From contig JAFVDZ010000064.1 in assembly GCA_017478205.1 (NCBI GenBank), positions 1 through 57,576 of the forward strand: a stretch of DNA of 57,576 bases. The letters run 5' to 3'. The notes beneath the pieces are model-generated. The model did not search any database and was not told where the DNA came from. It worked only from the letters and a program-made list of their open reading frames with translations. Position 1 is the stretch's first letter. Each line of letters opens with the position of its first letter. Source of the stretch: Spirochaetales bacterium. Its GTDB lineage: Bacteria > Spirochaetota > Spirochaetia > Sphaerochaetales > Sphaerochaetaceae. Shown here piece after piece: positions 2,631 to 46,390 of this stretch. The position numbers were made by a program, and so were the translations under genes.

Positions 2631-4081
2631 ACTGGAAATCGGTAATAAAGCTACTTGCATACATCATGCTCTTCATTGGGCTTTTGATGCTGATCCCAAC
2701 CTCAATAGCCTATTACATGGAAGAAAAAGAGGCGCTCACAGGCTTCATCATCGCTGAATGCATGATACTTCTCTGTTCAGTTCCTGCAATCATGATGATA
2801 GGAAACAAGGAAGAGTTGGTCATCAAGGCGCGAGACTCATATCTGTTTGTAACTCTGACCTGGATTCTGGCTACATTCTTTGGTTCGATTCCTCTCTTAT
2901 ATACAAAGAGCTGTCCAACATTTTCGCAGTGCTACTTCGAGATAATGTCTGGCTTTACTACAACAGGAGCAACAACTTTTACTGTTATCGAAGACAAGGC
3001 CAAGTCCATTCTCTTCTGGCGAAGTATGACCAACTGGCTCGGTGGCATGGGTATCGTCGTTCTTTTCGTTGCTGTCCTTCCACTACTTGGTGTAAAGGGT
3101 ACTGGATTGGTAGGTGCTGAATCTGTAGGACCTACAAAGGACAAGCTGACACCTAAGATCAGGTATACAGCAATCGCTCTCTGGTCCATCTACCTTGCGA
3201 TAAGCTTCATGGAGGTAGTCCTTCTTGCTCTCGGTGGCCTTGACCTTTACGAAGCAACAACTGTGACCTTCGCTACAATGGGTGCTGCCGGTTTCTGTAT
3301 CAAGAATAGCAGTATAGGAGGTTTCGAAAGCCTCTATGTTGATATAATCGTCACCATTTTCATGTTCCTTGCGGGCATGAACTTCGCACTCTTTTTCAAG
3401 ATCTTACAGAGGAAGATAAATAAGGTAATCAGGGATGGTGAATTCAGAATGTACTATATTGTTGTTCTGCTATTCACACTTCTTTGTGCAATTAACCTCA
3501 CTGTTTCAGGTGTCTATACCAACTTCTTCACAAGTATCCGATATGCGGTATTCCAGGTAGTTTCTGTTGTCACGACAACAGGTTTTGCAACTCAGGACTA
3601 CTGCCTTTGGCCAACTTTCTCGAAGATGCTGCTCTTGGTTCTTTTCTTTATCGGTGGCTGTGCCGGTTCTGCAGGCGGTGGTATCAAGGTGATCAGAATA
3701 AGAACTCTTTTCACTCTTGGAAAGAATACTCTCATCAGGAGACTTCACCCAAGAGCTGTAGTTCCTGCAAGAATTGGTGATGATTTCATCGCTCAGGAAA
3801 CAATTCTTGGTATAGCTGGCTTTGTCGGGTTGTATATCGCAACTGGCCTTGTTGGAGCTGTTTTCTTTGCTCTCTCTGGCATGGATATGATTACCTGCTT
3901 CTCTGCATCCTTCCTTTGTCTTGGCAATGTTGGAATTGGATTTGGATCAGTTGGCCCAACTGGTAACTTCTCGATCTTTTCAGATTTTATCCTGAACGTA
4001 GGATCCTTTTTGATGCTTGTTGGAAGGCTCGAACTTTTTACAGTCTATGCTCTCTTTACAAGACACTTCTGGAGAGGTTGA
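2627..4081 (+). CDS. trkH: Trk potassium uptake membrane subunit TrkH
   Basis: TrkH is the K+-conducting membrane subunit partnered by TrkA. The 484 residues show the four pseudo-repeats of the family. The pore loops are recognisable as GFTTTGATTF, ATMGAAGF, SVVTTTGFAT and CLGNVGIGFG, and the hallmark WLGGMGIVVLFVAVLPLLG lies after the first loop. Translation starts at a GTG inside the trkA stop region (GTGA overlap), which indicates translational coupling. An AEC-family carrier follows after 6 nt. Length and all four filters are intact, so the channel should be functional. Confidence 0.95.
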   Translation: MNWKSVIKLLAYIMLFIGLLMLIPTSIAYYMEEKEALTGFIIAECMILLCSVPAIMMIGNKEELVIKARDSYLFVTLTWILATFFGSIPLLYTKSCPTFSQCYFEIMSGFTTTGATTFTVIEDKAKSILFWRSMTNWLGGMGIVVLFVAVLPLLGVKGTGLVGAESVGPTKDKLTPKIRYTAIALWSIYLAISFMEVVLLALGGLDLYEATTVTFATMGAAGFCIKNSSIGGFESLYVDIIVTIFMFLAGMNFALFFKILQRKINKVIRDGEFRMYYIVVLLFTLLCAINLTVSGVYTNFFTSIRYAVFQVVSVVTTTGFATQDYCLWPTFSKMLLLVLFFIGGCAGSAGGGIKVIRIRTLFTLGKNTLIRRLHPRAVVPARIGDDFIAQETILGIAGFVGLYIATGLVGAVFFALSGMDMITCFSASFLCLGNVGIGFGSVGPTGNFSIFSDFILNVGSFLMLVGRLELFTVYALFTRHFWRG

Positions 4082-4087
4082 TCAGAT

Positions 4088-5011
4088 ATGTACACATCGC
4101 TAATGAATCTGATGGGAATGATGTTCCTCACAATCTTGGCAGGTGCTCTATTAAGAAGAAAAGGGATAATTACTGATGAAGGGAAGAAGGTCCTTACCGA
4201 CCTTATCCTCTTATTCATTCTGCCTTGCAATATCATTAAGTCCTATATGATGAGTATAGAGAATGGATTCTGGACCACCTTCTTTATCATACTTGCTGTC
4301 GCATCTGGTGTTCAGGCTCTCTCCTTGATACTTGCCCACTTGCTCTATAGAGGTATGAACGAGTCTGAAAAGCAGGTATACCAGTATGGTACAGTCTGCT
4401 CTAATGCAGGCTTTCTAGGGCTTCCTGTTACTGATGGTGTCTTTGGAACAACAGGTTTGCTCTATGCAACAGTTTTTCTGGTTCCACAGAGAATTGTCAT
4501 GTGGACTGCTGGAGCTGCATTCTTTCAGAAGGGTGGCTCGAACTGGCAGTCGTATAAGAAGATATTGACGAATGTGTGCATGATTGCAACCTATATTGGC
4601 ATTGTTGTCATGCTATTTCAGATCAAGTTCCCTCCTGTGATCGAGAACACGATTACAAAGGTTTCAAATGCAAATACAGCTCTTACTATGATCTACATCG
4701 GTTCTGTAGTAGGGGATGTTGATTTCCATGGTCTGATTACAAAGAATCAGATCTATTTTGCTTTGATTCGATTGTTCCTCATCCCTATGATGGTCTATTT
4801 TATCTCTTCCTCCATTGGCCTAAAGCCTCTGGTAGTTGGCATCGCAACTCTTCTTTCTGCAATGCCTTGTGGAAGCACAACTCCATTACTTGCCCAGAAG
4901 TATGGCGCTGATGTAATTGCAGGTGCTAAGGCTGTAATCTTCACAACAGTGCTTTCTCTTATCACACTGCCTCTTTGGAGTATGTTCCTTCTTTCCAGAT
5001 TGCAGGGGTAA
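4088..5011 (+). CDS. AEC (auxin efflux carrier) family transporter
   Basis: This 307-residue integral membrane protein has about ten predicted helices and the AEC-type N-terminus (Gly-rich first helix, then LRRKGIITDEGKKVLTDLIL and a helix with a PCNI break). The family moves organic acids or other anions, and the substrate cannot be read from sequence. It lies 6 nt after trkH and is probably co-transcribed with the Trk genes, although no functional link is obvious. A second, distinct AEC carrier is encoded at 12614-13627. The gene ends next to a hairpin that mainly serves the convergent hpf gene. Confidence 0.85.
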   Translation: MYTSLMNLMGMMFLTILAGALLRRKGIITDEGKKVLTDLILLFILPCNIIKSYMMSIENGFWTTFFIILAVASGVQALSLILAHLLYRGMNESEKQVYQYGTVCSNAGFLGLPVTDGVFGTTGLLYATVFLVPQRIVMWTAGAAFFQKGGSNWQSYKKILTNVCMIATYIGIVVMLFQIKFPPVIENTITKVSNANTALTMIYIGSVVGDVDFHGLITKNQIYFALIRLFLIPMMVYFISSSIGLKPLVVGIATLLSAMPCGSTTPLLAQKYGADVIAGAKAVIFTTVLSLITLPLWSMFLLSRLQG

Positions 5012-5037
5012 AAAAAATTGGAGGCCGTAGCCTCCAA
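5011..5037 (-). terminator. Intrinsic terminator of hpf
   Basis: A perfect 8-bp stem TTGGAGGC/GCCTCCAA with a 4-nt loop is followed on the minus strand by seven Ts (A7 at 5011-5017 on the plus strand). It lies 16 nt beyond the hpf stop codon. On the plus strand the T-run is poor, so any effect on the upstream carrier gene should be weak. Confidence 0.85.
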
Positions 5038-5052
5038 CTATATTTCAGGAAC

Positions 5053-5346
5053 TTAACCCTTAACTTTCTCTTTCTCTTTCTTTGCTACAGACTGTATCTT
5101 GTCTGCAATGAGCTCGATACCTTCGTAGAGTTCTATGCATTCTTGGGTGACAACCTTTTCTGATTTCCATCTGAAATGGAGGGCTGCGTTGATCGAGTAG
5201 CCGATGTGCTTGGTCTCCCTTGTGATCGCAATGTCAAGATCCTGAAGATATTCATCTGCGAATGCAAGCTTCTTGAGCTTCTTGTCGATGAAGTCCAGAG
5301 TCTCCTGGCTTGGTGTGTAGTTGATGCCTCTAACCTTGAGTTCCAT
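5053..5346 (-). CDS. hpf: Short-form ribosome hibernation promoting factor
   Basis: This 97-residue protein of the HPF/RaiA (YfiA) family binds the 30S decoding region and inactivates ribosomes in stationary phase. The start MELKVRGINYTPSQETLDFI and the later KLAFADEYLQDLDIAI follow the beta-alpha-beta-beta-beta-alpha fold of the family. There is no long C-terminal dimerisation domain, so this is the short form. AAGGAGG precedes the ATG. A good -10 (TATAAT) lies upstream and a strong terminator follows, so the gene is monocistronic. Confidence 0.9.
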   Translation of the reverse strand: MELKVRGINYTPSQETLDFIDKKLKKLAFADEYLQDLDIAITRETKHIGYSINAALHFRWKSEKVVTQECIELYEGIELIADKIQSVAKKEKEKVKG

Positions 5347-37058: not shown

Positions 37059-38777
37059 TCATTCTACATCCTGCAAAGCGTCATAGCCTTCTTCTCCAGT
37101 TCTGACCTTGACTACATTCTCACAGTCATAGACAAAGATCTTTCCATCTCCGATATGGCCTGTGTAGAGAACCCTCTTTGCAGTCTCAATTACCGATCTG
37201 ACTGGAATTGCAGAAACTACGATATCGACCTGCACCTTTGGCCTCAGATCTGTCTCGACCTGGACACCTCTGTATATCTCGACATGGCCATTCTGCATGC
37301 CATAGCCCATGACATGGGAAACTGTCATGCCGGTAATACCGAGTTTTGCCATTGCTTCCTTAAGTTCATATAGCCTCTCTTCCTTGAAGATGATCTCAAT
37401 CTTTGTGAACTTGTGTCTTCCTGTTTCAAAGGAGTGCTCTCTCTTGACTGGTATAGCTTCTGCAACAGGAATATCGCCAGGAACTATCACAGCATCTTTT
37501 TCTATCATTCCAAACTTGCTAACTGCAGGCATGAAATCTGCATAGGCACTAGGTAGGCCGTGTTCACTCTTATCAAGACCTGATAGTTCATCCTGGATAT
37601 CTGCTCTGAGAAAGTTCAGCTTCTTCAAAAGAGAGAAGAATAGAAACATCGTAACAGTAGCCCAGGAGCCAACTGCAAGAAAGCCTACCAGCTGGATATA
37701 TATCTGATAGAAATCACCTGTGTAGAGGAGACCTTTAAGGTGTGCAGGAGCATCAGGATTTGATAGTAGCCCAACTGCAATTGTTCCCCATATGCCATTT
37801 GCACAGTGGACACCTACAGCACCAACTGGGTCATCGATATGCAGTTTCAGATCTAGCATCTCAACGACACCTACTACAAGAAGACCTGAGACTGCACCTA
37901 CAATGAGAGCACCAACTGCATCGTATGCATCACAGCCAGCTGTAACAGCGACAAGACCTGCAAGAGATGCATTGAGACACATGGAGACATCAGGTTTCTT
38001 GTTCTTGATCCATGTGTAGATCATAGCAACACAGGTTGCCACTGCAGGAGCAATGGTTGTTGTAAGGAAGATGGAGGATAGCTCTGATGGAGTTGTTGCG
38101 GCAGCTCCATTGAAGCCATACCAGCCAAACCAGAGAATGAATACGCCCAGTGCACCAAGTGGAATGGAATGACCTGGGATCGCATTTACTTTCACGATCT
38201 TACCATCTCTATCTTTCACATACTTACCTGTTCTCGGCCCAAGTATTGCAGCTCCGATTAAAGCTGCGATACCACCGACCATGTGTATTGCACACGATCC
38301 TGCATAGTCGTGAAAGCCGAGTGATGAGAGAAAGCCACCTCCCCAGATCCAATGTGCCTCGATAGGGTAGATTATCATGCTGATGAACCCTGAATAGACA
38401 CAGTAGGCTGAGAACTTCGTCCTTTCTGCCATCGCTCCCGAAACGATAGTAGCTGTTGTTGCACAGAAGACAAGGTTGAATACAAAGGTGCTTGCATCTG
38501 TGAAGCCAGCTTCCTTGGCCTGGATGAATTTGCCAAAATCAACAAAGAGATCAAAGTTTGGCTTTCCAATAAGGCCAAAGAAGGAATCTTCACCCATCAT
38601 CAAAGTATAGCCAAGGAACATGAAGACTACGGTTCCGATACAGAAGTCCATCAGATTCTTCATGATGATGTTTCCTGCATTCTTTGCTCTGGTAAAGCCT
38701 GTTTCGACCATTGCAAAGCCTGCCTGCATCCAAAATACAAGTGCTGCTCCGATCAGGAACCAGAATTCTACACTCAT
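37059..38777 (-). CDS. amt: Ammonium transporter fused to a PII (GlnB/GlnK) domain
   Basis: This 572-residue fusion has an Amt channel in residues 1-410, with eleven helices, ALVFWMQAGFAMVETGFTRA at the start, AHWIWGGGFL and the C-tail LSGLDKSEHGLPSAY. After a 45-residue linker comes a complete PII domain (about 455-572). Its T-loop reads GYGMQNGHVEIYRGV, keeping the Tyr that is modified in other PII proteins, and ends with TGHIGDGKIFVYDCENVVKV. PII proteins normally plug Amt as separate trimers, and here the plug is covalently attached to the gate. It is co-transcribed with glnN, which lies 12 nt upstream. Confidence 0.95.
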   Translation of the reverse strand: MSVEFWFLIGAALVFWMQAGFAMVETGFTRAKNAGNIIMKNLMDFCIGTVVFMFLGYTLMMGEDSFFGLIGKPNFDLFVDFGKFIQAKEAGFTDASTFVFNLVFCATTATIVSGAMAERTKFSAYCVYSGFISMIIYPIEAHWIWGGGFLSSLGFHDYAGSCAIHMVGGIAALIGAAILGPRTGKYVKDRDGKIVKVNAIPGHSIPLGALGVFILWFGWYGFNGAAATTPSELSSIFLTTTIAPAVATCVAMIYTWIKNKKPDVSMCLNASLAGLVAVTAGCDAYDAVGALIVGAVSGLLVVGVVEMLDLKLHIDDPVGAVGVHCANGIWGTIAVGLLSNPDAPAHLKGLLYTGDFYQIYIQLVGFLAVGSWATVTMFLFFSLLKKLNFLRADIQDELSGLDKSEHGLPSAYADFMPAVSKFGMIEKDAVIVPGDIPVAEAIPVKREHSFETGRHKFTKIEIIFKEERLYELKEAMAKLGITGMTVSHVMGYGMQNGHVEIYRGVQVETDLRPKVQVDIVVSAIPVRSVIETAKRVLYTGHIGDGKIFVYDCENVVKVRTGEEGYDALQDVE

Positions 38778-38789
38778 TCTATTACCCTC

Positions 38790-40886
38790 TTACTTTACTC
38801 CAAAAAGGAGGTCTGAATAGACAGGGAATGGCCAGTAGCTTCTCTCTGTCATCATTTCTGCCTTGTCGCATGGCATCCTTAGTTCGCTCATTAAAGGAAT
38901 CAGGGTGTCCCTTACCATCTTCGACTGCTCTATGATGTCCTCTACACCTTTTACCTTGCAAATTGCATTCTCGAGCCTCTCAAGGTTTGCTGTAATTTCA
39001 TCGATGAGATAAGAAAGCTCTTCGATGAGTTTTGTCTCATATGAACACTTTAGTGTTGGTACGATAGCCTTCTTGTTCATTGCAGCTTTTGCAACATCAG
39101 ATAGATAGTTCTCGATCGCTGGAGCAATCTGGGTCCTTGCCATATCGACCATAGTGTTTGCCTCTATGATGATGGTCTTTGTGTAGTTCTCGAGGTTGAT
39201 ATCTCTTCTGGACTTTAGCTCGTCCAAAGTGTAGACCTTCATTCTTGAGAGCATCTTGACGTTCTTCTCATCCATGAGATGTGGAATGCAGTCAGCAGTT
39301 GTCCTGTAGTTCAGAAGTCCTCGCTTCTTTGTAGCTTCCTGTATCCAGGCATCATCGTAGCCGTTGCCATTGAAGATTATTCTCTTGTGCTCCTTGATCG
39401 TCTTGACAATCAACTGGTGGAGAGAAACTTCAAAGTCATCAGCCTTCTCAAGAGTGTCTGCAAAGATTCTCAAAGTATCTGCAACAGCACTGTTGAGCAT
39501 TATGTTTGCACATGCAATGCTATCAGAAGAGCCGACCATTCTGAATTCGAACTTGTTGCCAGTGAATGCAAATGGAGAGGTTCTGTTTCTATCTGTTGTA
39601 TCTCTGTTGAAGAATGGAAGCACATCTACACCGAGCTGCATTACAGTCTTCTTTGTTCCAGGATATTCTCTATCCTCTTCTAGAGCTTCGAGAATTGCAC
39701 TGAGTTCATCTCCGAGGAAGATCGAGATCACAGCTGGTGGTGCTTCATTTGCACCCAGACGGTGGTCGTTTCCTGCTGTTGCAACAGAGATTCTGAGAAG
39801 GTCCTGATAGTCATCTACTGCCTTGATAACGGCACAGAGGAAGAGCAAAAACTGTGCATTTTCGTATGGTGTCTCGCCAGGGGATAGAAGGTTCTGTCCA
39901 TCATCTGTGCTGATTGACCAGTTGTTGTGCTTTCCCGATCCGTTCACACCAGCAAATGGCTTTTCGTGGAGAAGACAGACAAGACCATGTCTCGATGCAA
40001 CGCTCTTCATGATATCCATAGTGAGCTGGTTGTGGTCTGTTGCAATGTTCGTAGTCGTATAGATTGGAGCAAGCTCGTGCTGAGCTGGAGCAACTTCGTT
40101 ATGCTCAGTCTTTGCAAGTATGCCAACTTTCCAAAGTTCCTTGTTCAGATCTTCCATGAATGCTGCAACAGTCGGCTTGATCGCACCGAAGTAGTGGTCA
40201 TCAAGCTCCTGTCCCTTTGGAGGTCTTGCACCGAAAAGGGTTCTGCCTGTAAAGCGAAGATCTGGTCTCTTTTCATACATTTCACGTGTTATGAGGAAGT
40301 ATTCCTGCTCTGGTCCAACTGAGGAGACGACGCGATTTGCTGATGTGTTGCCAAACAGATGGAGGATTCTCACAGCTTCATGGCTGAGAGCTTCCATACT
40401 TCTAAGAAGGGGTGTCTTCTTGTCGAGAACCTGACCGCCATAAGAGCAGAAAGCAGTTGGGATATAAAGTGTTTTTCCCTTGATGAACGCATAGCTAGTT
40501 GGATCCCAGGCAGTATAGCCCCTTGCTTCGAATGTGGCTCTGAGCCCACCGGATGGGAAAGAAGAGGCATCTGGCTCACCTTTTATTAGCTCCTTGCCTG
40601 AAAATTCCATGATTACAGAGCCATCTGGAGACTTGGTGATGAACGAGTCATGCTTTTCTGCTGTTATGCCTGTAAGTGGTTGAAACCAATGAGTAAAGTG
40701 AGTTGCACCGTTCTCGACAGCCCAGTCCTTCATAGCTTCTGCAACTGCGTTGGCAACTCCGATGTCGAGTGTGGTGCCTCTGCTTATCGTCTTGCTAAGT
40801 GATTCGTAGACTTTGCCAGAAAGACGTGCTCTCATGACTCGGTCATCGAAAACCATACATCCAAAGTAATCAGAAACCTTTTGCAT
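38790..40886 (-). CDS. glnN: Glutamine synthetase type III
   Basis: This 698-residue GSIII makes glutamine from glutamate, ammonium and ATP. Large size and motifs such as [48 protein letters not shown]-like [44 protein letters not shown] and [11 protein letters not shown] mark the type III family. AAGGAG lies eight bases before the ATG. Its leader holds two large hairpins, one terminator-like. Together with amt-PII it forms an ammonium-scavenging operon, divergent from the glutamate synthase operon. Confidence 0.97.
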
Positions 40887-40908
40887 ATGTAACTCCTTGT
40901 AAACTGAA

Positions 40909-40960
40909 GAAGGGCAAAGGATATTCGTGTGTTTTTACACGAAAGACGCCTTTGCCCTTC
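40909..40960 (-). other. Leader hairpin B of the glnN-amt transcript
   Basis: In the minus-strand RNA a perfect 12-bp stem (GAAGGGCAAAGG/CCTTTGCCCTTC) carries an inner 7-bp stem TTCGTGT/ACACGAA with the six-base loop AAAAAC. It ends 10 nt before the glnN ribosome site. Its 5' arm repeats GGCAAAGGCGTCTT of hairpin A, so it can instead pair with the 3' arm of A (nine bases). Confidence 0.7.
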
Positions 40961-40986
40961 ACCATGTTTCTTGATAGATAAATAGA

Positions 40987-41024
40987 AAAGGCGTCCTCGA
41001 GCTGATTAACTCGAAGACGCCTTT
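40987..41024 (-). terminator. Leader hairpin A of glnN-amt, terminator-like
   Basis: In the minus-strand RNA the arms AAAGGCGTCTTCGAG and CTCGAGGACGCCTTT pair over 15 bp with one G-U, around an 8-nt loop. TTCTATTT follows, giving a T-rich tail. On the plus strand the same position would be a C-A mismatch, which favours function in the glnN direction. It sits close to the predicted transcript start, as expected of an attenuator. Confidence 0.7.
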
Positions 41025-41040
41025 GCCTTCATGTCAGTCA

Positions 41041-41069
41041 CGCTACTACCAAACAAATTTTTCTGTCAA
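41041..41069 (-). promoter_or_regulatory. Predicted promoter of glnN-amt
   Basis: On the minus strand a consensus TTGACA (41069-41064) is present. The -10 region 17 bp further (GTAGCG) is poor, so the promoter may need activation. The transcript would begin just ahead of hairpin A. Confidence 0.4.
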
Positions 41070-41115
41070 TAGCTTTGAGGAAATTTTTTATAGTTCAATT
41101 TTTTTCTTCCCCTTC

Positions 41116-41145
41116 TTGACATGGAGAAGTAAGAAGAACTAAAAA
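41116..41145 (+). promoter_or_regulatory. Predicted promoter of the glutamate synthase operon
   Basis: Consensus TTGACA (41116-41121) is followed after 18 bp by TAAAAA (41140-41145, four of six). The transcript would start around 41151, a few bases before hairpin C. Confidence 0.5.
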
Positions 41146-41159
41146 GACAAGAAATGAGC

Positions 41160-41208
41160 AAAGGCGTTCATTACCGCATGGGAAAACTATGCGATAATGG
41201 ACGCCTTT
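41160..41208 (+). terminator. Leader hairpin C of the glutamate synthase operon, terminator-like
   Basis: Two 20-nt arms, 41160-41179 and 41189-41208, pair with only one G-U and one C-A mismatch around a 9-nt loop. TTGTTTT follows the 3' arm, which itself ends in TTT. The base of the stem, AAAGGCGT...ACGCCTTT, is the same sequence used in hairpin A of the divergent glnN leader. It lies between the promoter and the first gene, so it should act as an attenuator. Confidence 0.8.
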
Positions 41209-41231
41209 TTGTTTTCATGAAGGATGCACTT

Positions 41232-42326
41232 ATGAAAAGAGAAGGTGAAGTTCGTATTCCATCAGGCTGTGCAATTGCAGCTGTGATCTCAAGGAAAAAG
41301 GAAAATATCCCAGGCTCTCTCATCATAAAAGCGATGGGGCCGATGCACGATAGAAGCAATGGTCTGGGTGGTGGTTTTGCAGGATATGGAATCTATCCAG
41401 AGTATAAGGACTTCTATGCAATGCACCTGTTTTTTGATAACAGGGACTCAAGGAAGGCCTGCGAAGTGTTCATCAAGGAGTATTTCGAGATTGTCAAATC
41501 TGAAGTGATTCCAACACGGAAAATACCATCGATCACCGATGAGCCTATCATCTGGAGATATTTTCTCCATCCTCTGATGTCCATGATGCTATCTTTGCAG
41601 CTTGATGAGAAATCTTTTGTGGCGAGAGCTGTCATGAAGATAAACACTGAACTTGATGGAGCCTATGTCTTTTCAAGTGGAAAGAATATGGGAACCTTCA
41701 AGGCAGTCGGATACCCAGAAGATGTAGGACTCTTCTATCGTCTTGAAGAGTATGAGGGCTACTCCTGGACTGCACATGGAAGATATCCAACGAACACACC
41801 AGGATGGTGGGGTGGTGCCCATCCATTCTCTCTTCTCGATTATTCCGTTGTCCACAATGGAGAAATCTCATCATACGATGCAAATCGTCGCTTTATCGAA
41901 ATGTATGGCTATAAGTGCAATCTCCAGACTGATACGGAAGTTATTACATACATACTGGATTACCTTATCAGAGTGAAGGGCCTCACATTGAATGAGGCAG
42001 CAAATGTGATCGCAGCACCCTTCTGGAGCACGATAAATGGCGAAAAGGACAGAAGGGAAAGTGAGATACACGCATATCTGAGAAAGACTTTTCCAAGTCT
42101 TCTTATCACAGGACCATTTTCAATTGTCCTTGGTTTTGAGGGTGGCATCATGGCCCTCAATGATCGCTTGAAACTCAGGTCCATGGTAGTTGGAGAGATG
42201 CGTGATAGGGTCTATATCGCAAGTGAAGAAGCTTCTATCAGGGCAATGGATGATTCAGCCAAAGAGATCTGGGCACCAGCTGGAGGCCAGCCTGTGATCG
42301 TAAGAGTAGAGGATGAGAGAGCATGA
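41232..42326 (+). CDS. Glutamate synthase, class II glutamine amidotransferase subunit
   Basis: This 364-residue protein corresponds to domain 1 of GltB. It would release ammonia from glutamine using an N-terminal-type Cys in RIPSGCAIAAVI (residue 12 from my start). It has SNGLGGGFAGYGIYP, SAHGRYPTNTPGWWGGAHPF-like AHGRYPTNTPGWWGGAHPFS and VHNGEISSYDANRRF. The open frame extends upstream to 41154, but that part is leader hairpin C. AAGGA lies seven bases before the ATG at 41232, so I start there. An ATG at 41217 has no ribosome site. It overlaps the FMN subunit by 4 nt. Confidence 0.9.
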   Translation: MKREGEVRIPSGCAIAAVISRKKENIPGSLIIKAMGPMHDRSNGLGGGFAGYGIYPEYKDFYAMHLFFDNRDSRKACEVFIKEYFEIVKSEVIPTRKIPSITDEPIIWRYFLHPLMSMMLSLQLDEKSFVARAVMKINTELDGAYVFSSGKNMGTFKAVGYPEDVGLFYRLEEYEGYSWTAHGRYPTNTPGWWGGAHPFSLLDYSVVHNGEISSYDANRRFIEMYGYKCNLQTDTEVITYILDYLIRVKGLTLNEAANVIAAPFWSTINGEKDRRESEIHAYLRKTFPSLLITGPFSIVLGFEGGIMALNDRLKLRSMVVGEMRDRVYIASEEASIRAMDDSAKEIWAPAGGQPVIVRVEDERA

Positions 42327-43828
42327 GTATCGATTTTATATCTCCTGAATTTGATGTAAGCAGAAACGAAAGTCGCTGTATAAAGTGCAGAATCTGTGTA
42401 AGGGAATGTGCTAATGGAGTCCATATCTTTGATGAGAAGAGGGGTATCCTGATAAGCGACGAGACTAAGTGTGTTAACTGCCAACGCTGTGTTTCCTTCT
42501 GTCCAACGAGAGCTCTGAAGATCATCAAGAACCCCAATGGGTTGAAGAGCAATGCTAACTGGTGTAGTGATTCAGTAAACGAAATCTTCAAGCAATCTTC
42601 AAGTGGAGGCGTACTTCTTTCTTCGATGGGAAACCCAAAGAAATATCCTGTCTACTTTGACAGAATATTGATCAACGCATCGCAAGTGACAAACCCTCCT
42701 ATCGACCCTCTCAGAGAGCCAATGGAGACAAAAGTCTTCCTTGGAAAGAAGTCTGATGTGATAGAGCGCGATAGCGATGGGAAGATCAAATGCTCTACAG
42801 AGCCACAGATAGAACTCTCTATGCCCATAATGTTTTCAGCAATGAGCTATGGCTCCATAAGCTACAATGCACATGCTGCACTAGCGCGTGCAGCAACTGA
42901 ACTTGGCATTCTCTACAACACTGGGGAAGGAGGTCTGCATGAGGATTTCTATGTCTATGGAAAGAACACGATAGTGCAGGTTGCAAGCGGCCGTTTCGGT
43001 GTCCATGAGGATTACCTGGAAGCAGGATGTGCGATAGAGATCAAGATGGGACAGGGCGCAAAGCCTGGTATTGGTGGTCACTTACCTGGAGCGAAAATTG
43101 TTGGTGACGTTGCAAAGACTCGTATGATTGCTGAAGGTTCTGATGCAATCTCGCCAGCTCCTCACCACGATATCTACTCTATAGAGGATCTTCGTCAGTT
43201 AGTGTTCTCATTGAAGGAAGCAACTAACTATAAGAAACCAGTTATTGTCAAGGTTGCTGCTGTGCATAATATTGCTGCAATCGCAAGTGGGATTGCGAGA
43301 AGTGGTGCCGATATCATTGCAATCGATGGCTTTAGAGGAGGCACTGGAGCAGCTCCTACTCGCATTCGTGACAATGTGGGAATCCCAATTGAACTTGCAA
43401 TTGCCTCTGTTGATCAACACTTAAGAAATGAGGGGATAAGAAACAATATTTCCCTTGTCGCAGGCGGTTCTATAAGGAGTTCTGCTGATGTAGTAAAGGC
43501 AATTGCTCTTGGTGCCGATGCTGTCTATGTTGCCTCGGCTGCACTGATAGCAATGGGTTGTCATCTTTGCAGGAACTGTCAGAGTGGCAAATGTAACTGG
43601 GGAATTGCAACTCAGCGCGCTGAGCTTGTCAGTAGGCTAGATGTCGAAGTTGCCAAGACAAGACTTGTAAACCTGATGACTGCCTGGAGGCATGAAATAA
43701 TGGAGATGATGGGCGGAATGGGAATCAACTCGATTGAGGCACTCAAGGGAAATCGTCTCATGCTGAGAGGAATTGGCATGACTGAAAAAGAGCTTGAAAT
43801 ACTTGGTATTTCTCATGCGGGTGAATGA
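42323..43828 (+). CDS. Glutamate synthase, FMN/ferredoxin-domain subunit
   Basis: This 501-residue archaeal-type GltS core has an N-terminal 2x[4Fe-4S] ferredoxin segment (CIKCRICVRECANG and CVNCQRCVSFCP, residues about 13-60). The FMN TIM barrel that makes glutamate from 2-oxoglutarate follows, with MSYGSISYNAHAALARAATE, GQGAKPGIGGHLPG, IDGFRGGTGAAPTRIRDNVG and a C-rich MGCHLCRNCQSGKCNWGIAT holding the 3Fe-4S-type cluster. No NADPH-binding GltD gene is adjacent, so ferredoxin may be the direct electron donor. It is translationally coupled to the amidotransferase. Confidence 0.94.
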   Translation: MSIDFISPEFDVSRNESRCIKCRICVRECANGVHIFDEKRGILISDETKCVNCQRCVSFCPTRALKIIKNPNGLKSNANWCSDSVNEIFKQSSSGGVLLSSMGNPKKYPVYFDRILINASQVTNPPIDPLREPMETKVFLGKKSDVIERDSDGKIKCSTEPQIELSMPIMFSAMSYGSISYNAHAALARAATELGILYNTGEGGLHEDFYVYGKNTIVQVASGRFGVHEDYLEAGCAIEIKMGQGAKPGIGGHLPGAKIVGDVAKTRMIAEGSDAISPAPHHDIYSIEDLRQLVFSLKEATNYKKPVIVKVAAVHNIAAIASGIARSGADIIAIDGFRGGTGAAPTRIRDNVGIPIELAIASVDQHLRNEGIRNNISLVAGGSIRSSADVVKAIALGADAVYVASAALIAMGCHLCRNCQSGKCNWGIATQRAELVSRLDVEVAKTRLVNLMTAWRHEIMEMMGGMGINSIEALKGNRLMLRGIGMTEKELEILGISHAGE

Positions 43829-43838
43829 GGGGGATGAA

Positions 43839-44558
43839 ATGACTATAGATGCAGCAGATCTAGATTACAGATGTATCAACGAAGAAATTAGAAAAGTAGA
43901 TGGAAAATGCATTATTACATCCTGTTTGGGGCAGCGCTTCATCGCATCTGGCATGTCGAACATAGATATAGAAATTGAAGGAATTCCTGGTAATGCTCTA
44001 GGCTCATACCTCAATGGTGGCACTATCACAGTGCATGGAAATGCTCAGGATGCTGTAGGCGACACTATGAACGATGGCAAGATTGTTGTTCACGGTAATA
44101 TTGGAGATGCAGCAGGCTATGCTATGCGAGGTGGCAGAATCTACATCAAGGGTGATGCAGGTTATAGAGCAGGTATCCATATGAAAGAATACCAGGAGAA
44201 GGTTCCTTTGATGATAATAGGTGGGAGTGCTGGAAGCTTCTTGGGTGAGTATCAGTCTGGCGGGGTGATAATCGTGCTGAATCTGAATAGTAGAAGGCAA
44301 AAGAGCGTTGGTTTTTTCCCTTGTACTGGAATGCACGGAGGTAAAGTATTCCTCCGCTCAAGGTGTGAGGATGTAGTGTTTCCACCTCAAGTGATCAGAA
44401 GAAGTGCAACAGATGAGGATAGAAATGAATTAAGAAGCTATCTAGAGGAGTACTGTGACCTCTTTTCTCTTGACCTTGAGGAAATTCTTTTTTCAGAATT
44501 CACTGTGGTTACTCCAGATAGTAAGAATCCATACAGACGGATGTATGTTGCCAATTGA
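43839..44558 (+). CDS. Glutamate synthase, GXGXG (domain 3) subunit
   Basis: This 239-residue right-handed beta-helix protein corresponds to the C-terminal GltB domain, which links the two active sites structurally. The repeat is clear: GNALGSYLNGGTITVHGNAQ, GDTMNDGKIVVHGNIGDAAG and YAMRGGRIYIKGDAGYRAG, followed by IIGGSAGSFLGEYQSGGVII. The ATG at 43839 is preceded by GAGGGGG. A reading from 43794 has no ribosome site and overlaps the previous gene. With the two upstream genes it makes a complete but three-piece synthase. Confidence 0.9.
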   Translation: MTIDAADLDYRCINEEIRKVDGKCIITSCLGQRFIASGMSNIDIEIEGIPGNALGSYLNGGTITVHGNAQDAVGDTMNDGKIVVHGNIGDAAGYAMRGGRIYIKGDAGYRAGIHMKEYQEKVPLMIIGGSAGSFLGEYQSGGVIIVLNLNSRRQKSVGFFPCTGMHGGKVFLRSRCEDVVFPPQVIRRSATDEDRNELRSYLEEYCDLFSLDLEEILFSEFTVVTPDSKNPYRRMYVAN

Positions 44559-44577
44559 TAAAGGGAGGAGAGATTAG

Positions 44578-45789
44578 ATGAGGTATTCGAAGGAAGAAGT
44601 GATCCAGTATGTTCGTGAGGAGGATGTAAAATTCATCCGCCTTGCTTTCTGTGATGTGTTTGGAAGACAGAAAAACATTTCGATAATGCCAGATGAACTT
44701 GAGAGAGCCTTTGAATATGGCATCTCTTTCGATGCTTCTGCAGTTCAGGGCTTTGGCGACGAAGCTCACTCAGACCTGATGCTCTTTCCTGATGCCGATA
44801 CTCTTGTTCCTCTCCCATGGAGACCAGAAAGAGGGCGTGTTGTCCAGATGTTCTCATCAATCCGTCGCCCTGATGGACAAGAGTTCTATGGGGATACTCG
44901 AGCACTTTTGAAGAAGGCAGTAGAAGACGCAAAAGATAAGGGGCTCGAGTTTACATTCGGTTCTGAAGAAGAGTTCTATCTCTTCAAGCTCGATGAGTTT
45001 GGTTTTCCTACAAAGGTTCCATCTGATAGAGCTGGCTATATGGACATAGCTCCAGATGATAGGGGTGAGAACGTAAGAAGAGAGATCTGCCTCATACTAG
45101 AGCAAATGGGTATCCACCCAGAAAGCTCACACCATGAAATGGGGCCGGGCCAGAATGAAATAGATTTCCGCTATGCATCTGCAATCGAGGCAGCTGACAG
45201 TGCCATGATCTTCCAGCGAGTTGTCCGAACGGTTGCTTTCAACAACGGACTCTTTGCTGATTTCTCTCCTCGTCCACTTCCTGATTCCCCCGGTAACGGT
45301 TTTCATATCAACATGTCAATTTTGCCACTGGATGATGAGAAACTCTTTGAGTATATGATTGCAGGTATCCTTAAGCATGTTAAAGAGATGACAGCATTCC
45401 TGAATCCTGTAGAAGACTCATACAGAAGACTTGGTGCTTTCAAGGCTCCACTCTATGTCTCATGGTCAAGGGAAAACAGATCTCCACTTGTGAGAATTCC
45501 TGCTGCAAATGGTCCATATAGAAGGGCAGAACTCCGAAGTCCTGATCCGACAGCAAATCCATATCTTTCATTTGCCTTGATGATATGGGCATCCCTTGAA
45601 GGAATTGAAGGTAAGTTGCCACTTTCCAAGTCAGCTGACATCAATCTGTTCACAGCTGAAAAAGATGTCCTTTCACAGTATGAGAGACTTCCTGAAAGCT
45701 ATGAAGAGGCCTGTAGAATTGCATCCTCTAGCAGCTTCATAAAGAAGCATATCCCTCAGGAAATCCTATCCATTTACTGTAACAATTGA
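44578..45789 (+). CDS. glnA: Glutamine synthetase type I, short form
   Basis: This 403-residue GSI has FGSEEEFYLF, HHEMGPGQNEIDFRYA, GNGFHINMSI, SWSRENRSPLVRIP and the C-terminal AELRSPDPTANPYLSFALMI. These cover the Mg, ammonium and ATP sites. Most GSI enzymes are 440-470 residues. This one lacks the adenylylation-type C-terminal loop and a few surface segments. It coexists with GSIII in the neighbouring operon. GGGAGG precedes the ATG. The ANTAR regulator follows after 10 nt, so its level may depend on the same attenuated transcript. Confidence 0.93.
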   Translation: MRYSKEEVIQYVREEDVKFIRLAFCDVFGRQKNISIMPDELERAFEYGISFDASAVQGFGDEAHSDLMLFPDADTLVPLPWRPERGRVVQMFSSIRRPDGQEFYGDTRALLKKAVEDAKDKGLEFTFGSEEEFYLFKLDEFGFPTKVPSDRAGYMDIAPDDRGENVRREICLILEQMGIHPESSHHEMGPGQNEIDFRYASAIEAADSAMIFQRVVRTVAFNNGLFADFSPRPLPDSPGNGFHINMSILPLDDEKLFEYMIAGILKHVKEMTAFLNPVEDSYRRLGAFKAPLYVSWSRENRSPLVRIPAANGPYRRAELRSPDPTANPYLSFALMIWASLEGIEGKLPLSKSADINLFTAEKDVLSQYERLPESYEEACRIASSSSFIKKHIPQEILSIYCNN

Positions 45790-45799
45790 GAGGCTGATT

Positions 45800-46390
45800 G
45801 TGTTGACGAACCTTGAAGAGAGAGTCTATAGCGTGCTTGTTGTGTCTGCAGGAGAAAATCTCAATACCGCTCTCTCTACTATCATGTCCAAAAGCCATTA
45901 TAGTCCTCTGAAGTTTGTTTCTAACATAGCTGAAGCGAAGCGTCAGTGGTGTGAGCGTGACTATGACTTCCTGATCATAAACTCGCCACTTCCTGATGAT
46001 ACTGGTGTCAGATTTGCGATCGATACAGTTGCATCAAGTAGTGCAATTGTTCTCTTCCTTGTACGCTCTGAATTGTCAGAAAGCATGAAAGATAAACTGT
46101 TTGGCACAGGAGTCCTCACTCTTGCAAAGCCACTGAATAGAATCTCTGTGATACAAGCACTCGAATGGATGGCAAGTTTCAGGGAGAGACTCAAGAAGAT
46201 TGAAGTAAAGACACTGTCAATCGAAGACAAGATGAAGGAAATACGTGTCGTGAATAAGGCAAAGTGGCTACTTATTTCTGTGTTGAAGATGGATGAACCG
46301 CAGGCTCATCGCTACATAGAAAAACAGGCTATGGATGCTTGTATTTCAAAGAAGGAAGTAGCCGATAGGATAATCAAGACATACTCTTAG
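45800..46390 (+). CDS. ANTAR-domain RNA-binding antiterminator with pseudo-receiver
   Basis: This 196-residue protein has a receiver-like N-domain (1-125) and a C-terminal three-helix ANTAR domain (about 138-193: IRVVNKAKWLLISVLKMDEP, AHRYIEKQAMDACISKKEVA). ANTAR proteins bind nascent RNA hairpins and block terminators. The acidic pair is missing (VLVVSAGE), and the phosphoacceptor position is Asn61 (LIINSPLPD), while the Lys in LAKPLN is kept. Activation is therefore probably not by phosphorylation. It starts at a GTG behind GAGAGG. Its position at the end of the glutamate synthase/glnA operon makes the leader hairpins at 40909-41208 the natural targets. Confidence 0.88.
   Translation: MLTNLEERVYSVLVVSAGENLNTALSTIMSKSHYSPLKFVSNIAEAKRQWCERDYDFLIINSPLPDDTGVRFAIDTVASSSAIVLFLVRSELSESMKDKLFGTGVLTLAKPLNRISVIQALEWMASFRERLKKIEVKTLSIEDKMKEIRVVNKAKWLLISVLKMDEPQAHRYIEKQAMDACISKKEVADRIIKTYS

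Follow-up and report, generated by a model that had tools for sequence, protein, structure and literature searches.

Candidate ANTAR-controlled attenuators with a single hexaloop in both leaders of a divergent nitrogen locus of a spirochaete

The window, i.e. the whole stretch of 57,576 nucleotides (57.6 kb) that was analysed, belongs to a Spirochaetales assembly of 1.9 Mb in 98 contigs. An intergenic region (40887-41219) parts the glnN side, on the minus strand, from a glutamate synthase (GOGAT) operon on the plus strand. The glnN gene (38790-40886, minus strand; Pfam GSIII_N, E 9.5e-79) encodes a type III glutamine synthetase, and would be controlled from this region; 3' of it resides a gene (37059-38777, minus strand), the product of which joins an ammonium transporter to a P-II domain. 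The plus-strand operon includes genes for the glutamine amidotransferase-type GOGAT subunit (41220-42326), the glutamate synthase FMN/Fe-S (42323-43828) and GXGXG (43836-44558) subunits, a glnA-like type I glutamine synthetase of 403 aa (44578-45789), which adjoins the ANTAR gene in most relatives, and a NitR-like pseudo-receiver/ANTAR protein (45800-46390), the proposed antiterminator. The start listed for the first GOGAT ORF, 41154, is probably not the genuine one, because it falls within hairpin C (see below). The distal gene had been read as an ANTAR gene in the preliminary description, and the C-terminal domain of its product indeed passes the Pfam ANTAR threshold (E 2.4e-14). No other ANTAR gene was found in the whole genome.

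The receiver of the same protein falls short of the Pfam threshold. Asn61 aligns with the acceptor Asp65 of Rv1626, no acidic pair follows strand 1, and relatives differ in the residue at the acceptor site (N, D, E, Q, K); the acidic pocket and phospho-acceptor Asp of phosphorylated response regulators were not found. EutV features a phosphorylated receiver and a kinase, whereas the window protein has a degenerate receiver pocket, and no kinase gene lies next to the ANTAR gene at the locus. For these two reasons the input of the ANTAR protein is probably a partner protein, as in the AmiR/AmiC and NasT/NasS systems. In AmiR, an ANTAR protein, the receiver undergoes no phosphorylation, and control is exerted by the partner. 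NasT is controlled through the binding of NasS (PMC3795266). No AmiC or NasS homologue resides at the locus, where the conserved neighbour is the glnA-like glutamine synthetase. This gene is the most constant companion of the ANTAR gene, missing beside it in genome G036, and to view its product as the partner is a guess. A receiver-type N-terminus, a C-terminal ANTAR domain and a location beside glnA and GOGAT genes liken the protein to NitR of Clostridium saccharobutylicum, an ANTAR protein tied to glnA and glutamate synthase genes, and reported, in the passage of PMC6316151 that cites Stutz 2007, to act in antitermination, or induction, of GS/GOGAT under nitrogen limitation. Clostridial relatives of the window protein share gene order and leaders with it. 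Compared with NitR, the present system differs by its spirochaete host, by taking in glnN, and by having defined leaders.

Three hairpins, A, B and C, mark the intergenic region. Stems of the type AAAGGCGT...ACGCCTTT had been proposed for the hairpins on both sides; such a stem is found in C (41160-41208) and B (40987-41024), but not in A, the stem of which is made by GAAGGGCAAAGG/CCTTTGCCCTTC (40949-40960 with 40909-40920), and which carries AAAGGCGT on its 5' side only. The window has five AAAGGCGT sites, against a chance mean of 0.79, and every one of them falls in this region. That AAAGGCGT stems belong to a repeat family spread through the genome was ruled out, as AAAGGCGT...ACGCCTTT palindromes in the 1.9 Mb genome are two, B and C. 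Relative to shuffled sequence, the minus leader folds with a z-score of -8.6 and the plus leader with one of -6.1, and the hairpins are genuine, well past chance. The repeat noticed earlier between A and B is exact, and measures 14 nt. T-rich tails, also part of the early account, are good in C (TTTTTGTTTT) and fair in B; that of A is poor in the window genome.

Six-base loops with A1 and G4, typical of ANTAR targets, had not been found before. This has to be corrected, since a loop AAAGGC, with A in first and G in fourth position and a closing C-G pair, is found on a short stem in each of the three hairpins. Hairpin C can fold as AATGAGC-AAAGGC-GTTCATT (41153-41172, plus strand; hexaloop at 41160-41165), the ANTAR form, or P2, the helix of which covaries, or as a terminator, T (41160-41208, plus strand), followed by TTGTTTTC and backed by covariation and by a covariance model match (E 4.2e-6). 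Hairpin B similarly features a covarying P2, GAAGGC-AAAGGC-GTCTTC (41013-41030, minus strand), and a T form (40987-41024, minus strand; model match E 8.0e-7) with the tail TCTATTTATC. In hairpin A, which follows B in tandem as the second unit before glnN, the ANTAR form is GAAGGGC-AAAGGC-GTCTTTC (40941-40960, minus strand), and the long stem GAAGGGCAAAGG/CCTTTGCCCTTC (40909-40960, minus strand) is the terminator form. The U-tract of the latter is poor here and good in the nearest relative, G004, where an orthologue of A is found (locus L064); tandem units occur also in clostridial glnN leaders. As the AAAGGC loop lies inside the 5' arm of each terminator, the hexaloop hairpin overlaps and excludes the intrinsic terminator, and P2 and T are mutually exclusive. 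T is far more stable than P2 (-31 vs -5 kcal/mol in C, -27 vs -5.5 kcal/mol in B), and the leaders should therefore be off by default. A switch in which B would pair with the 3' arm of A, once suggested, is not needed, because each element has its own P2 as alternative to T, and GOGAT leaders have one unit.

Leaders of relatives with the same gene order were scanned for hairpins with an A..G.. hexaloop overlapping a terminator, a pattern that, when the threshold is loose, occurs by chance about 0.7 times in 57.6 kb of random sequence. The stems are conserved, as the early account required, in that the hexaloop/terminator element occurs in both leaders of every tested relative with this gene order. 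It precedes glnN and/or GOGAT or glnA in all the ANTAR-bearing relatives examined. No element is found before glnN in five genomes without the ANTAR gene, nor before the second copy of glnN in the window genome (G000) and in G004. Covariation, the check recommended at the outset, was assessed on 34 aligned elements from 19 spirochaete genomes, and is positive for both alternative helices. In the T helix 92% of the cells are paired, and double changes occur at 9 of 14 pairs; the P2 helix is paired in 85%, its four inner pairs are intact in 34/34 elements, and three of them show double changes. Shifting the partner by 1-3 columns lowers pairing to 39-64% (T) and 30-50% (P2). A1 and G4 are found in 34/34 spirochaete and 102/102 clostridial elements, but were demanded by the search pattern; the finder accepted elements only if A1, G4 and a minimum of 4 P2 pairs were present, and in the training set these features are not independent evidence. 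The independent evidence is one hexaloop per leader, not A1/G4 invariance. In G004 an extra intergenic insert is found between 4142 and 5362 of locus L064, with both leaders intact; it includes a small antitoxin-like and a GNAT-like ORF, and resembles a toxin-antitoxin pair.

A covariance model built from the terminator fold alone was run on 101 relatives. Matches were found in 30 genomes and the ANTAR gene in 27, both being present in 26; in other words, 26/27 genomes with the ANTAR gene had matches, vs 4/74 of the others, figures for which a p-value overstates independence, because the genomes are related. The four ANTAR-less genomes with matches are one incomplete genome (G010) and three with borderline matches. 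In the window genome the significant matches are B and C alone. Among independent matches, i.e. those outside the training set, a P2 of at least 4 bp accompanies 19/23 in genomes with the ANTAR gene, vs 0/13 in those without (Fisher 1e-6). This P2-blind, T-only test weighs more than the search described above, because the finder demanded at least 4 P2 pairs. Matches in G011, G009 (contig C5) and G012 (contig C18) have no P2; they were rejected as elements and taken as plain terminators.

Genes behind the independent matches, identified by eye from their first residues, encode asparagine synthetase (asnB, four genomes), CTP synthase (pyrG, five genomes), ammonium transporter (amt), GOGAT and GlnA. 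Most targets produce or consume glutamine or ammonium. The pyrG attenuators, found in five spirochaete genomes (L125, L127, L132, L133, L134), mark an unexpected glutamine-using target. P2-bearing elements are also found before a circularly permuted ATP-grasp gene in G003, and before transporter-like genes in G058, one for a BMP-type lipoprotein, one for a permease (L117, L121 and L122 for the G003 and G058 loci).

These data bear on two alternatives. The stems are near-palindromic with T-tails, and intrinsic terminators between operons are common; the hairpins could thus be plain bidirectional terminators, or transcription insulators between the divergent operons, and the ANTAR gene a bystander. 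This is very unlikely, as the 5' arm of P2, which lies outside the terminator, still covaries, the element tracks the ANTAR gene between genomes and is also found, at a constant distance from the promoter, before asnB, pyrG and amt genes that stand alone, and P2 is missing from the terminators that the model matches in genomes without the ANTAR gene. Attenuation may otherwise depend on another ligand or factor, either in a riboswitch-like manner or through a different antiterminator protein. Nitrogen-gene attenuators of other types exist, such as the glnA RNA, known from cyanobacteria. An Rfam search found no family at threshold and chance matches only, the conserved core is the small hexaloop alone, which bears the A1/G4 signature typical of ANTAR targets, and the elements and the ANTAR gene occur together; a different ligand or factor is accordingly extremely improbable. 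Control by the ANTAR protein is proposed because the elements form two structures that exclude each other, show covariation of both, and are associated with the ANTAR gene as well as with genes of glutamine metabolism.

Promoter-like sequences precede the elements. The predicted promoter of the GOGAT operon (TTGACA-18-TAAAAA; 41116-41145, plus strand) is spaced from the hexaloop as in relatives, and in the predicted glnN promoter (41040-41069, minus strand; TTGACA at 41069-41064, -18-, TAGCGT at 41045-41040) the distance of TTGACA is conserved in relatives. By strict consensus the promoters of the window are weak, and that of GOGAT is weak on its own, because its pair is absent from the strict scan; the argument on predicted start sites is drawn from relatives, rather than from the window promoters. 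In 78% of 50 spirochaete leaders, vs 15% of shuffles, the end of the best promoter-like pair lies 11-17 nt ahead of the loop. With the start placed about 7 nt past the -10 box, it precedes the P2 stem by a median of 1 nt in the 50 leaders; predicted starts would fall upstream of the hairpins, and not downstream, the arrangement that the preliminary description held to be fatal to its model. The picture is sharper in gut Clostridia, in which the first elements (82) mostly follow TTGACA-17-TATAAT, with the predicted start at a median of 1 nt from the stem. Second elements of tandem leaders do not feature such promoter, and provide an internal control.

The elements resemble the eut leaders of Enterococcus faecalis, in which the base of the terminator holds, on its 5' side, a second mini-hairpin (P2; PMC3369931), in having a P2 hexaloop with A1 and G4 at this very position. 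The Met that plugs the loop in EutV is likewise shared, being conserved in 26/26 aligned ANTAR proteins (PMC3369931, PMC8934654). EutV requires two hexaloops, separated by a linker of 5-12 nt (PMC3369931; PMC8934654). In contrast to eut leaders, which carry P1 and P2, most leaders described here have one hexaloop, located at the predicted transcript start. Room for a P1 (at least 16 nt) is available in 2/50 spirochaete elements, and absent in 48/50; it is less than 16 nt in 78/82 clostridial first elements. P1-like hairpins precede 5/82 of the latter, vs 8% in shuffles, with no excess. As no second hexaloop hairpin is found 5-12 nt upstream of P2 in most leaders, the elements are classed as a single-hexaloop variant of the ANTAR-controlled attenuator. 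A candidate P1 before B (TAGT-AGCGTG-ACTG) was discarded, as its loop is not kept in G004 and the hairpin overlaps the predicted -10 box.

P1-like hairpins do occur in three spirochaete GOGAT leaders, those of G058 (L067), G047 (L075) and G032 (L072). They are found about 25-40 nt upstream of P2, a distance exceeding the eut linker, and are preceded, by eye, by a promoter-like pair at the same distance. These leaders possibly are intermediate between single and dual arrangements. Because predicted starts land at P2, or at P1 where a P1-like hairpin is present, the first hexaloop seems, as a rule, to be placed at the transcript start. The three leaders also fit ordinary dual-hexaloop control, in which B and A would act as P1 and P2, and a P1 with a distant start or an odd loop would be used elsewhere; the AAAGGC loops of B and A, 71 nt apart, and the mostly tandem clostridial glnN leaders can be read in the same way. 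Yet B carries a terminator of its own, each GOGAT leader has a single element, loop-to-loop distances of 40-70 nt or more surpass the linker of EutV (PMC3369931), P1-like hairpins in Clostridia do not rise above chance, and no space is left for P1 after the predicted starts. Dual-hexaloop control is therefore held to be unlikely.

ANTAR-controlled attenuators in both leaders, switching between P2 and T through the hexaloop, are highly likely to be the best explanation of these sequence data. The coordinated ANTAR antitermination of the two operons put forward earlier is supported by elements in both leaders, by covariation, and by tracking of the ANTAR gene. Each operon would have a sigma-A-type promoter, from which the transcript would start at the foot of P2, with its AAAGGC loop; loop and 3' arm of P2 would double as the 5' arm of T. 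With active ANTAR protein absent, T would form, and transcription would stop. When nitrogen (glutamine) is short, we infer that the ANTAR protein would bind the hexaloop and hold P2, one hexaloop being sufficient, and polymerase would read into GOGAT-glnA-ANTAR and glnN-amt-PII. The glnN leader would work as two tandem units, B and then A, so that two terminators have to be passed; as one of the attenuators precedes the operon with the ANTAR gene, the circuit should amplify itself.

By analogy with EutV, which requires two (PMC3369931; PMC8934654), a lone hexaloop might need another factor. Work on EutV at first defined ANTAR targets as pairs of hexaloops with a fixed, short spacing; one hexaloop then proved to be the unit that EutV binds, and whether sites with one hexaloop act in transcription, and to what extent they are used, has been posed as a question (PMC8934654); the leaders, found in dozens of genomes with near-perfect promoters and the hexaloop at the start, are a natural test of single-hexaloop function. 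The ANTAR regulons of Ramesh et al. 2012 include predicted targets before P-II, amt and glutamate/glutamine synthase genes (PMC3369931). Dual hairpins were required in that study, the main text of which does not name spirochaetes (PMC3369931), and two-hairpin searches would overlook single-hexaloop leaders. The evidence tilts slightly towards a broader reading, by which attenuators with a single 5'-terminal hexaloop and no P1 are widespread in gut Clostridia and spirochaetes, and their pseudo-receiver ANTAR protein senses nitrogen via a partner, plausibly the adjacent glnA-like synthetase, and not by phosphorylation. Single-hexaloop clostridial leaders may already have been described. The elements would define a compact nitrogen/glutamine regulon for common gut bacteria, including glnN, GOGAT, glnA, amt, asnB and pyrG.

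A scan of genome contigs with the ANTAR alignment retrieved mostly gut Clostridia, with 51-64% identity to the window protein; identity to ANTAR proteins of other Sphaerochaetaceae is lower, about 30-39%. The glnN of the window is 84-87% identical to that of several gut Clostridia. Many gut Clostridia, the source of the 102 clostridial elements, share the divergent arrangement of glnN and GOGAT-glnA-ANTAR and carry elements before both operons; tandem units are frequent in their glnN leaders, as in the window. In a maximum likelihood tree the glnN genes of the window and of G004 group with clostridial ones (100/100), apart from the second glnN of the window genome, and this grouping points to horizontal transfer. 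The nitrogen locus (37059-46390) was probably acquired in this way. Transfer from Clostridia is the simplest reading of a tree that is unrooted, from which direction is deduced; the entire switch would thus move between Clostridia and spirochaetes. The second glnN (L065; G000, contig C3, about 3197-5284, minus strand) groups with those of Sphaerochaetaceae, and has no ANTAR element upstream.
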